Of a DNA stretch of 64,000 bases, positions 4,580 to 36,134 are shown piece by piece (the stretch's first letter is position 1; each line of letters begins with the position of its first letter). The DNA is taken from contig JAQBPX010000032.1 in NCBI GenBank assembly GCA_028287305.1, forward strand, positions 124,001 to 188,000, read 5' to 3'. The notes under the pieces are model-generated. The model saw nothing but the letters and a program-made list of their open reading frames with translations. It searched no databases and had not been told where the DNA came from. The DNA comes from Gemmatimonadota bacterium. GTDB taxonomy: Bacteria; Gemmatimonadota; Gemmatimonadetes; Gemmatimonadales; Gemmatimonadaceae. The position numbers and the translations under genes are program-made.

Positions 4580-7500
4580 ATGCACCCGACCCTCAGTCGT
4601 GTGATTCGCGCCACGGTCGTGCTCGCCGCACTCGTCGCGCGTCCCGCCATCGCCCAGCAGGCTACCACCACGGGCAGTGTGCGCGGCGTGATCCGCTCCA
4701 GTGGCCAACCGCTCGCCGACGCGACCGTGAGCGCCACCAATACTGCCACCGGCACGCGGCGCACCAGCCGAACCGACGCCAGCGGCAGGTACCAGCTGCC
4801 CTTCCTCGATCCGGGGACGTATGCGGTGCGAGCCCAGCACCTGGGCATGCGCGCCGTGGAGCAGTCCGCGGTGCACGTCTCGCTCGGACAGGTCCTGACG
4901 CTCGACTTCACCCTCGAGAGCGCACCCGCAACCCTGGAGACGCAGCGCATCTCCGCCGACGTCGCGCCCCTGATCGAGAAGCAGAAGACGGGCACCGACA
5001 CGCGGATCAGCGAGGACCAGCTGCGCTCCCTGCCGACGAGTGACCGCAACTTCAAGAACCTCGTGGTGCTCACCCCCGGCACGAGCGACGTGGGCGCCAC
5101 CGGCGCCGGCGGCGGCCAGTCCATCGGCGGCGGGCGCACCGCGTCGTCGAACATCCTGATGGACGGCGCGAACAACAACGAGAGCTACTTCGGCGGCGAC
5201 GCCCGCGGCGGCGACCGCCTCCCCTTCTCCTACTCGATCGAGGCCGTGAAGGAGATCCAGGTGATCACCGCCGGCTACGACGTGGAGCGAGGCAACTTCA
5301 CGGGCGGCACGGTGAACGCGGTCACGAAGAGCGGCACCAACGCCTTCGAGGGCAGCTTCTTCGACTACGTCCGCGGCGACCGGAAGTTCGGGCTCAACCT
5401 CACCGGCAACGACTTCCTCGGCCGCGCCCCGCGCAACTACTCGCGCCAGCAGTACGGCGCGTCGCTCGGCGGCCCGATCCTGAAGGACCGGCTGCACTTC
5501 TTCTTCACCCTCGATCGCCAGGTGGGCAACGAGCCCAAGCCCGTGCTGCAGACCGGCACCACCACCGCGCAGATCAAGGCCGCCGGCATCAACGCCGACA
5601 CGCTGGCGAAGTTCCTCAACCTCGCCAAGACGGTCTACGGGTACGACCTGTCGCAGGAGACGGGCAACCTCCAGCAGAACATCGACGAGACGGCCGTCTT
5701 CGGCCGCCTGGACTACCAGGTCAGCGACCGTCACAGCTTCACGATCCGTGACAACTACCTGAACTTCGTCCAGTCGAACGACCGCCTCACCATCTCGCCG
5801 AGCACGAACGAGACGACGTCGAACGCCGGACCGTACAAGGAGAAGGCGAACTCGCTCGTGGCGGCCCTCACCAGCGCGTTCTCGAACCGCTTCTCGAACG
5901 AGGCGCGCATCCAGCTGGCGCAGGATCGCAAGCCGCGCCCCTCGAACCCGAGCCTGCTCGGCGGCCCCATTCCGCAGATCGGCGTGAGCAACATCGTCTC
6001 GCCCGCGGGCGACAACACCAACGTCACGACCGCGATCTTCTTCGGGTCGGACATCGTGCTCCATGCCAACAACCTGGAGCAGAACACCACGGAGTTCATC
6101 GACAACGTCCGCTACACGCGCGACGCGCACACGATGAAGTTCGGCGTGAACGCCACGCGCGTGCACGTGTTCAACAACTTCTTCCTCAACTCGCTCGGCA
6201 GCTACACCTTCAACAACCTCACGGACTTCGCCAACAAGAACCCGGCTCGCTTCACGCGCGCGCTGCCCTTCACCTCCACGAGCGGCGCGCCCGATGCGCT
6301 CTTCGCGGAGTACGAGTACGCGCTATACGCGCAGGACGAATGGCAGGCGACGCCGAAGCTCTTCGTCACGTACGGCCTCCGGTACGACAACAGCCGCCTG
6401 CCCAATGCGCCGGCCGCCAACACCACGCTCTCCGGCGGACCCCTCGCGCTCAGCACGAACTTCCAGCCGAGCGGAAAGGGTTACGTCTCGCCTCGCGGTG
6501 GGTTCACCTATGATCCCGGCGCCGACGGGCAGCAGGTGATTCGCGGCGGGTCGGGGCTGTTCTACGGCCGCGCTCCCTACGTGCTCTACGGCAACGTGCT
6601 CTCGGCCAACGGGCTCACGCAGCTCGACCTGACCTGCACCGGCGCGGCGCAGATCCCGGCGATCGACCTCTCGGCCTATGCGAAGAACGCATCCAGCATT
6701 CCGAGTGCCTGCTCCACCGGCGGCGCGGCAGTGGCGAGCAAGGCAAGTCCCGTGGTGTTCGCCCGCGACTTCTCGCAGACGCGCGCGTGGAAGTCGAACC
6801 TGGCGTACGACCGCCTGGTGATGAAGAACTGGCGCATGACCGTGGAAGGCGTGTACACGAAGACGTCGAATGACTACACGGTGCGCGACGCGAACCTGAA
6901 GACCACGTCGCAGTTCACGATCGAGGGCGGCATCCCGGTGTACGTGCCGGCGTCCACCATCACCGCGGCGGGGCTCACGAACATCAACAACAGCCGCGTC
7001 GACGCGAACTTCAACAACGTCTTCGTGCAGGAGTCGAAGGGCCAGGCGAACTCCATGCAGGGGATCCTGCAGCTGCGCGGCACCACGCGCTGGGGCGGGC
7101 TGCTGGCGAGCTACACCTACGACCGCACGCGCGATCACGGGTCGGTGAGCTGCTGCATCGCCGGCTCGGACATCTTCGGGGCCACGCGCGCCAACGGCAA
7201 CCCGAACGACCTCTCGAACCAGGAAGGGCCGGCGACGTACAATCGCCCGCACTCCCTGATCATCTCGCCCACTCTCAACCTGCCATACGGCGTGGCGCTC
7301 AGCGGGATCTTTCGTCGCTACTCAGGCCTGCCCTGGACGCCTCGCTATCGCGGCGACGTGAACGGCGACGGCGTGACGAATGACCGGCTCTACATTCCCA
7401 CGAGCGCGGAGCTGCAGTCGTACACCTTCCTCAACGGCGCCACGGAGCGGGACGCGTTCGAGGCCAAGATCGCCAGCACGCCCTGCCTCAACGATCATCG

Positions 7501-34296: not shown

Positions 34297-34355
34297 AGCG
34301 GTACGGCCTTCAAGCTAGTTGGCGGGCGAGGCCGGGGCAACCGCATGACGACGAC

Positions 34356-34441
34356 GGGCAGGGTGGGATTCGAACCCACGGTACCGTTGCCGGTACGCCG
34401 GTTTTCAAGACCGGATCATTCAACCACTCTGACACCTGCCC
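34356..34441 (-). tRNA. tRNA-Ser (anticodon TGA)
   Basis: This 86-base tRNA has acceptor GGGCAGG/CCTGCCC. The anticodon loop CTTGAAA (stem CCGGT/ACCGG) gives anticodon TGA for UCA codons. It has a long variable arm (GTACCG/CGGTAC) and a T arm GTGGG/CCCAC around TTCGAAT. CCA is not encoded. It is 59 bases upstream of tRNA-Ser(GCT) on the same strand. Confidence 0.95.
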
Positions 34442-34493
34442 CAGCGCGAAAAATCGCGGTCTCGGCAGGTTGGCGCTACTGGCCGGGCCGGTC

Positions 34494-34695
34494 GCGCCGG
34501 GGTCGGTGCCTCGGACTCCGCGGACTGAAGGGCGGAACAGTGCCGGATACTTCAACTGCAGGAGCTTTTGCAACTGCACAAGAACCGAGAATGGAGAAAT
34601 GGCCTGCTGAGGTAGAACGGCCACTCCTGAAAAGTGGTCCTTTCCGTGATGTCCGCCCTTCAGTCCGCGAGATCCGAGGAACCGGCCGCGGCGCC
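34494..34695. repeat. 202-bp inverted-repeat element with 43-bp arms beside tRNA-Ser
   Basis: The left arm (34494-34536) and right arm (34653-34695) are reverse complements at 37 of 43 positions. The innermost 18 bases (CGCGGACTGAAGGGCGGA) match perfectly. The core (34537-34652) is less GC-rich than its surroundings. It holds two CAACTGCA words (34553 and 34570) and a small dyad (CCACT...AGTGG). No open frame across it looks like a protein. The right arm stops six bases before the histidine kinase stop codon. No terminal duplication of flanking bases is obvious. Confidence 0.85.
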
Positions 34696-34700
34696 AGAGG

Positions 34701-36134
34701 CTATCCCGGCAGCACCAGCACAAACGTCGAACCCTCGGCCGACGAGCGCTCAAGTGTGAGGCGACCACCGTGCGCCTCGGCGATCCAGCGCGCGATCGAG
34801 AGGCCCAGGCCCGCGCCGGCGGGATGCGACTCGTCGCGCGTGCGCGCGGCGTCGGCCCGCACGAAGCGCTCGAACAGGTGTGGCTGCACTTCCAACGGGA
34901 TGCCGGGCCCGGTGTCGCTCACCTCGAGTCGATACCCCTCGGCGGCGCGCGTGAGGCGCAGCGAGATCGCGGTGCCGGGCGGCGAGTACTTGATCGCGTT
35001 GTCGAGCAGGTTGAGCACCAGCCGGTGCAGCAGCTCGTCGTCGCCGGTGAACGGCGATTCCTCCGCCAGCGCGAGCGCCACGCTCACGCCGCGCTCCTCG
35101 GCCAGGGTGCGGACGTTGCGCGCCACTTCGGCCACCAGGTCATCGAGGTAGAGTGGGGCGCGACGCAGCTCGATCTCGCCGGCGTCGGCGCGCGCGAGCA
35201 TGAAGAGGTCGTCCACCATGCGACGCATGCGACGTCCCGCGTCCCGCACGATGGTCAGCGCCTCCTCGTACTCGCCGGCGTTGCGCCCGGGGCGCGACAG
35301 CGCGAGGCTGGCCTCGTGCTGGATCACGGCGACCGGCGTGCGGAGCTCATGCGACGCATCCTCCATGAACTGTCGCTGCCGCGCGAAGGCCAGCTCGAGT
35401 CGCGCGAGCAGGTCGTTGATCACGGCCGCGAGCTGACCCACTTCGTCGCCCGGGTTCGACACGGGAAGGCGGTCGGAGAGGTTCGACGCGCCGATGCGCG
35501 CCGCATGCTCGCGCATGATGATCATGGGCTGCAGGCTGCGGCGCGCCAGCAGCCACCCACCCAGGCTGGCGAGGAGCAACGCCACGGGAATCGTGACGAG
35601 CATCGCGAGGCGCGCGGCGGCCAGCGTCTCCTCCTCCTCGTGCAGCGATGCGGCGGCGCCCACGACGAAGCGGCCGTCCGGCATCTGCACGCCGATGGTC
35701 ACCGCGCGATAGCCGCCCTCGGGATCGGGCAGCGACACCGCGCGTGAGCGCGTCGGCCAGTCCGCGGCGATCAGTCGGCCCAGCCGAGTCGCATCGAACG
35801 CCGCTTCAGGCGGCTCGTGTCGCGACGCGCGCGCGCGGGGAAGGCTGCTCGCCACCAGCGCGCCCGCCGAGTCGTACACGAAGAAGGTGATGTGCCGGAA
35901 CTGGAGCTCCTGCAGCACCTCCTGCGCGGCCTCGCGCGTGGTCGCGTGCTGCGGCCGCTCGGCGACCAGCTGGTACTGCAGGTCGGTCATCGCGTCGCGC
36001 ACCACCGAGTCGGTGCGCGCGCGGCTCGTCTCCAGCACGAAGGCGTACGCCCCTGCGGCAAGGAGCACGAGGAGCAGCGCGAGCACCGCGGTGTTCCAGA
36101 GCGCCAGGCGGGCCCGCACGGAGGCGAGCCTCAT
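34701..36134 (-). CDS. Sensor histidine kinase (HAMP, HisKA, HATPase)
   Basis: The protein has 477 residues: membrane helix about 10-34, a periplasmic sensor region about 35-172, a second helix about 175-197 (LAMLVTIPVALLLASLGGWL), and HAMP about 198-250. HisKA carries phospho-acceptor His262 in DASHELRTP. The ATPase domain has LNLLDNAIKYSPPG and DTGPGIP. Its ATG overlaps the response-regulator stop by four bases. The signal sensed is unknown. The partner regulator and the TonB receptor upstream suggest it may control envelope uptake, which is an inference from position. Confidence 0.94.
   Translation of the reverse strand: MRLASVRARLALWNTAVLALLLVLLAAGAYAFVLETSRARTDSVVRDAMTDLQYQLVAERPQHATTREAAQEVLQELQFRHITFFVYDSAGALVASSLPRARASRHEPPEAAFDATRLGRLIAADWPTRSRAVSLPDPEGGYRAVTIGVQMPDGRFVVGAAASLHEEEETLAAARLAMLVTIPVALLLASLGGWLLARRSLQPMIIMREHAARIGASNLSDRLPVSNPGDEVGQLAAVINDLLARLELAFARQRQFMEDASHELRTPVAVIQHEASLALSRPGRNAGEYEEALTIVRDAGRRMRRMVDDLFMLARADAGEIELRRAPLYLDDLVAEVARNVRTLAEERGVSVALALAEESPFTGDDELLHRLVLNLLDNAIKYSPPGTAISLRLTRAAEGYRLEVSDTGPGIPLEVQPHLFERFVRADAARTRDESHPAGAGLGLSIARWIAEAHGGRLTLERSSAEGSTFVLVLPG

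Follow-up and report, generated by a model that had tools for sequence, protein, structure and literature searches.

The palindromic element and its neighbours

The window (the whole 64,000-bp stretch of Gemmatimonadota DNA analysed here) contains a 201-bp inverted repeat, with the stop codon of a histidine-kinase-like gene 6 bp away and a tRNA-Ser(TGA) gene 52 bp away. The features of the locus are as follows.

34494-34694, no strand assigned: whole element, subfamily 1, v1/v1 arms; inverted repeat matched by the R1 covariance model with 123 bits, on both strands
34494-34515, + strand: outer segment A, left arm (GCGCCGGGGTCGGTGCCTCGGA); kept across copies in alignments A1/A2
34519-34536, + strand: inner segment B v1, left arm (CGCGGACTGAAGGGCGGA); the most conserved segment of the family, pairing perfectly with 34652-34669
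34537-34651, no strand assigned: core of decayed inner arms and centre, with CAACTGCA twice; equivalent of the ACTGCAACTGC...TTTGGAACNGC inner arms in better-kept copies
34652-34669, + strand: inner segment B, right arm; identical to 34519-34536 when reverse-complemented
34673-34694, + strand: outer segment A, right arm, from the sequence and the alignments of copies
34701-36134, - strand: neighbouring histidine-kinase-like gene, outside the element; ORF and coding score, function predicted from the translation
34355-34441, - strand: tRNA-Ser(TGA) (ARAGORN, Rfam); adjacency incidental by comparison with relatives

The arms (34494-34536 and 34652-34694) are complementary at 37 of 43 positions, with perfect pairing of the innermost 18 bp, and an inverted-repeat tool extends them to 34471-34536 and 34652-34717, with 115 nt between. 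By comparison, when the 600-bp region was shuffled 300 times with dinucleotides preserved, the best 43-bp inverted repeat matched at 30 of 43 positions, and the predicted fold of the element as single-stranded DNA reaches -64.6 kcal/mol, against -34.7 ± 3.4 kcal/mol for shuffled sequences (z = -8.9). These data bear out the arms, the inner 18 bases and the 115-bp core described in the initial annotation, along with the start of the element, although the proposed 202-bp span ran 1 bp too far at its other end, which lies at 34694. The repeated sequence noticed within the core is indeed present, CAACTGCA occurring at 34553-34560 and 34571-34578, and the view that no protein is evident is consistent with the ORF check, which revealed no convincing frame confined to the element. 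The core of this copy looked unpaired because its inner arms have decayed.

A dispersed family at gene ends

A single copy without conserved pairing would have spoken against a mobile or structured element, as the initial annotation recognized. A search of the DNA of the source genome (G000; 39 contigs, 4.37 Mb in total) gave dozens of matches about the size of an arm, and the R1 covariance model placed the family at ∼41 distinct sites, counted by hand from matches with E≤1e-3. The 17 full copies that were read and aligned display a nested palindrome in which the outermost segment A (GCGCCGGGGCCGGTTCCTCGGA) is followed by a spacer of 3-6 nt and then by segment B, which exists in two versions (CGCGGACTGAAGGGCGGA or CGCGGACGAACTGAAGCGGA). 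Inward of segment B come a CGCGGA block and then inner arms of the ACTGCAACTGC type, and the centre often forms a hairpin of its own (GGAACGGCACACCGG...CCGGTGTGCCGTTCC). Subfamily 1 consists of hairpins of ∼190-225 bp; in subfamily 2 (∼11 copies) the stem is lengthened by GCGCTCCACACGTAGGGGTC.../...GACCCCTACGTGTGGAGCGC, giving a total of ∼265 bp. Stems across the family are about 90-130 bp long. The subfamily 2 loci L156-L166 (contigs C31, C24, C4, C12, C16 and C25) share a conserved 30-bp outer stem. One copy (L039, G000:C12:289701-289790) has its outer end (GGAACCGGCCGCGGCGCGA) three times in tandem, which suggests local end duplication, while two divergent copies, L168 (C14:110628) and L169 (C32:34429), contain tandem CGCGGACGAC-type units expanded in parallel in both arms.

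The location of the copies was assessed against genes called by a home-made codon-score finder. By this measure 18 of 44 copies occupy convergent gaps, 25 tandem gaps and one a divergent gap, compared with 25 convergent, 86 tandem and 25 divergent among background gaps of at least 20 bp, and a gene 3′ end flanks at least one side in 43 of the 44. The distance from stop codon to element edge has a median of 9 bp and is most commonly 6-7 bp; for ordinary strong hairpins downstream of stops in this genome, the median distance to the hairpin start is 21 bp. Between convergent genes the elements fill the whole gap. The neighbouring genes are ordinary and functionally unrelated (release factor 3, LeuRS, SecA, ribonucleotide reductase and others).

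In two cases a reading frame runs into the element. The C-terminus of TrmD (...KAEGERLS-RSGQSPRNDAD*) derives its last 11 residues and stop codon from the element at C4:41562, while at C24:336970 a decarboxylase ORF reads 34 bp into a copy. The TrmD tails of relatives are variable, and none of the 19 that were read contains the element. Judging from the trmD tail and the decarboxylase run-in, these elements seem to have inserted at the ends of genes or into them. A second TrmD-like frame in G000, at C8:1493-2128, is 78% identical to that at C4:41721 and is either a paralogue or part of a contaminant contig (the listed contamination of the assembly is 3%).

Genomes within the element-bearing genus g19 were also compared. 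In G170 a two-gene pair (L177, G170:C20) is bracketed by two similar hairpin elements, at 2112-2314 and 5322-5507. G162 and G164 carry the pair but lack the hairpins, and in G160 the pair is absent from this position; the exact junctions are unreadable because these species are too diverged, and no clean empty/filled site was found at base resolution among the relatives compared. One element in G170 lies in an apparent divergent promoter gap. A shared element site behind a ribonucleotide reductase gene in G171 was dropped from consideration, as the gene is about 600-700 bp away.

The window copy lies close to tandem tRNA-Ser genes, and the initial annotation viewed such genes as a frequent insertion site, and named a core belonging to an annotated tRNA-linked RNA as an outcome that would count against its reading. 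Neither possibility fits the placement of the copies behind gene 3′ ends or the organization of this region in relatives. Upstream of gltX (L193-L221), gltX and tRNA-Ser(GCT) are adjacent in 27 of 29 relatives, with tRNA-Ser(TGA) joining them in six, and no element-like hairpin was seen by eye at gltX/tRNA-Ser in the 15 relatives inspected. The tRNA neighbourhood of the window element is thus incidental.

Element ends and the likeness of the two arms

No target-site duplication (TSD) was evident, the mean direct repeat across 27 flank pairs being 0.30 bp compared with 0.14 bp by permutation (p=0.09). Outside the GCGC of the left end, position -2 is K and position -1 is Y in 26 of 27 copies each, and the right flank mirrors this pattern, with R at +1 (25 of 27) and M at +2 (26 of 27). 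The true ends of the element are therefore probably KYGCGC...GCGCRM, judging from the aligned flanks. The conserved arms, inspected in A1/A2, contain none of the integron attC core boxes (GTTRRRY / RYYYAAC). Insertion into terminator dyads was considered and rejected, as complementarity between the flanks was marginal (p=0.07). Loss of the hairpin nuclease SbcD was likewise set aside, since weak matches to it occur nearly everywhere in the family, including the source genome, which renders the idea uninformative.

The two arms of an element match each other better than they match the arms of other elements (permutation p=4e-4 for the whole arm, 5e-5 for the outer segment and 1e-3 for the spacer). 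In 13 of 25 copies the two arms have the same motif blocks at the A end, against 3.0 expected (p=5e-5), and this concordance is also significant inside each subfamily. The variant blocks (TTCCAA, TCTCCT and TCTACG among them) differ from each other at several positions and usually appear in both arms of one copy. On the presumed transcribed strand, G-T mismatches (74) show no clear excess over A-C mismatches (62), and hence the mismatches give no hint that an RNA helix is under selection. The RNAalifold covariation signal in the 17-copy alignment is weak (3 of 30 pairs) because that alignment pools copies, making the within- versus between-element comparison the better test. Block-wise replacement together with the lack of a wobble excess favours the view that the arms are kept alike by templated correction at the DNA level; selection on a DNA cruciform could also account for their likeness. 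At a site common to G167 and G018 the hairpin is kept and its central stem contains paired changes, which is also compatible with selection on structure.

Origin of the family

These data indicate that the window feature is one copy of an interspersed palindromic (foldback) repeat family, which has probably spread by insertion, mostly no more than ∼10 bp behind stop codons. The element would move as a hairpin or folded single strand, mobilized by an enzyme that would recognize the GCGC-type palindromic ends and that either acts in trans or has since been lost. The likeness of the arms would derive mainly from the use of one arm as template for the other (quasi-palindrome correction), and not from selection on RNA, and the element, tolerated at gene ends, may secondarily serve as a bidirectional 3′-end barrier. 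It is possible, although this proposal is tentative, that the family represents a distinct bacterial foldback class defined by placement ∼6-7 bp behind stops, lack of a TSD and of a Y1 transposase, and arms repeatedly rewritten by templating.

One rival to this reading is a functional 3′-end RNA structure, either a bidirectional terminator or an mRNA-stabilizing hairpin, that would be selected at gene ends and would have spread by duplication. Element edges close behind stops, the filling of entire convergent gaps, pairing of the arms within each element and retention of the hairpin at one site in both G167 and G018 are all consistent with such a role. It is nevertheless rather unlikely, given that wobble mismatches are not in excess on the strand presumed to be transcribed, and given a downstream U-tract that is not consistent by eye, the unrelated functions of the neighbouring genes and the G170 element in an apparent divergent promoter gap. 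The structured RNA suggested in the initial annotation fares no better in Rfam, where the window element returned only a chance-level match to mir-26 (16 bits against a gathering threshold of 57).

Mobile repeats of known type were also weighed. REP, BIME and REPIN sequences are, like the present family, many-copy extragenic palindromes, and a REP/REPIN-type repeat moved by a RAYT (Y1 tyrosine) transposase would account for dispersal without a TSD, as in single-strand transposition. REPs, however, are 20-40 bp long and tagged with GTAG or CGTC, the GTAG type being linked to RAYTs (PMC3733652), whereas the arms here far exceed this length, are untagged and show only the KY/RM flank consensus. 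Y1_Tnp is present in 30 of 179 genomes of the taxonomic family but absent from the source genome, and none is listed for 18 genomes of g19, making this origin highly improbable. Similarly hard to credit is a classical MITE whose ends would match those of a parental DDE insertion sequence. The MITE-like character proposed initially holds in so far as the elements are short, non-coding, dispersed and multicopy with long terminal inverted repeats, but direct repeats do not exceed chance and no insertion sequence with matching ends was recognized, the genome-wide transposase search having covered Y1_Tnp. As the REP/RAYT tests and one defining MITE test (TSD) failed, the family was assigned to neither group.

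Known repeats and relatives of the family

With dispersed extragenic copies of ∼100-250 bp that each form one long stem-loop, the family resembles the YPAL/ERIC-like class, and the best reading is a foldback mobile repeat that works like YPAL or ERIC and moves without target duplication. YPAL (RU-2, the Yersinia palindromic sequence) is 168 bp long and reported to be co-translated with upstream genes (PMC2229807). It is similar in size, palindromic and non-coding, is not A+T-rich and lacks TA termini, but duplicates 3-26 bp of target (PMC2229807), in contrast to the present family, which, comparing descriptions, has longer arms and a centre that is often itself a hairpin. ERIC (IRU, 127 bp) is also an intergenic repeat with a single long stem-loop predicted (PMC2267715), although it has TA termini and a TSD (PMC2229807) where the present family has GCGC ends and none. 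NEMIS/Correia repeats (∼106-158 bp) likewise have inverted termini and the potential to form RNA hairpins (PMC2229807, PMC2267715), but differ in their TA termini, TSD and 24-bp terminal inverted repeats, compared with long arms and GCGC ends. Searches of the open-access literature yielded no description of the present family. It documents dispersed long palindromes with narrow placement behind stops and arms evolving in concert, and poses two testable questions: what directs an element that makes no target duplication to the ends of genes, and by what means one bacterium maintains dozens of near-perfect palindromes of 190-280 bp.

A species-restricted origin was initially suggested by BLAST, which gave only 26-27-bp matches in 2 of 59 relatives, but was rejected once the covariance model detected diverged relatives. 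A horizontal origin was also discarded: blastn against phage and plasmid collections gave no match to the window copy, the exact core 18-mer is absent from viral contigs, and 24 scattered single matches among 84,980 genomes were taken as chance. At E≤0.01, R1 has matches in 28 of the 288 order-level genomes and in 25 of the 395 phylum-level genomes; these counts are lower bounds owing to fast filters, and the weakest matches are near threshold. All the matching genomes belong to the same taxonomic family, probably the Gemmatimonadaceae, with none outside it among the 395 phylum genomes searched. Relatives weaker than the copies in G000 but alike in architecture are found in other genera of this family. 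The stronger among them are near-perfect hairpins that have the architecture, but not the sequence, in common. Their hairpin modules include CCGCGGA or ACGGAGA, CAACTGCAACTGC and a centre of GGGGGAACTGC...GCAGTTCCCCC.
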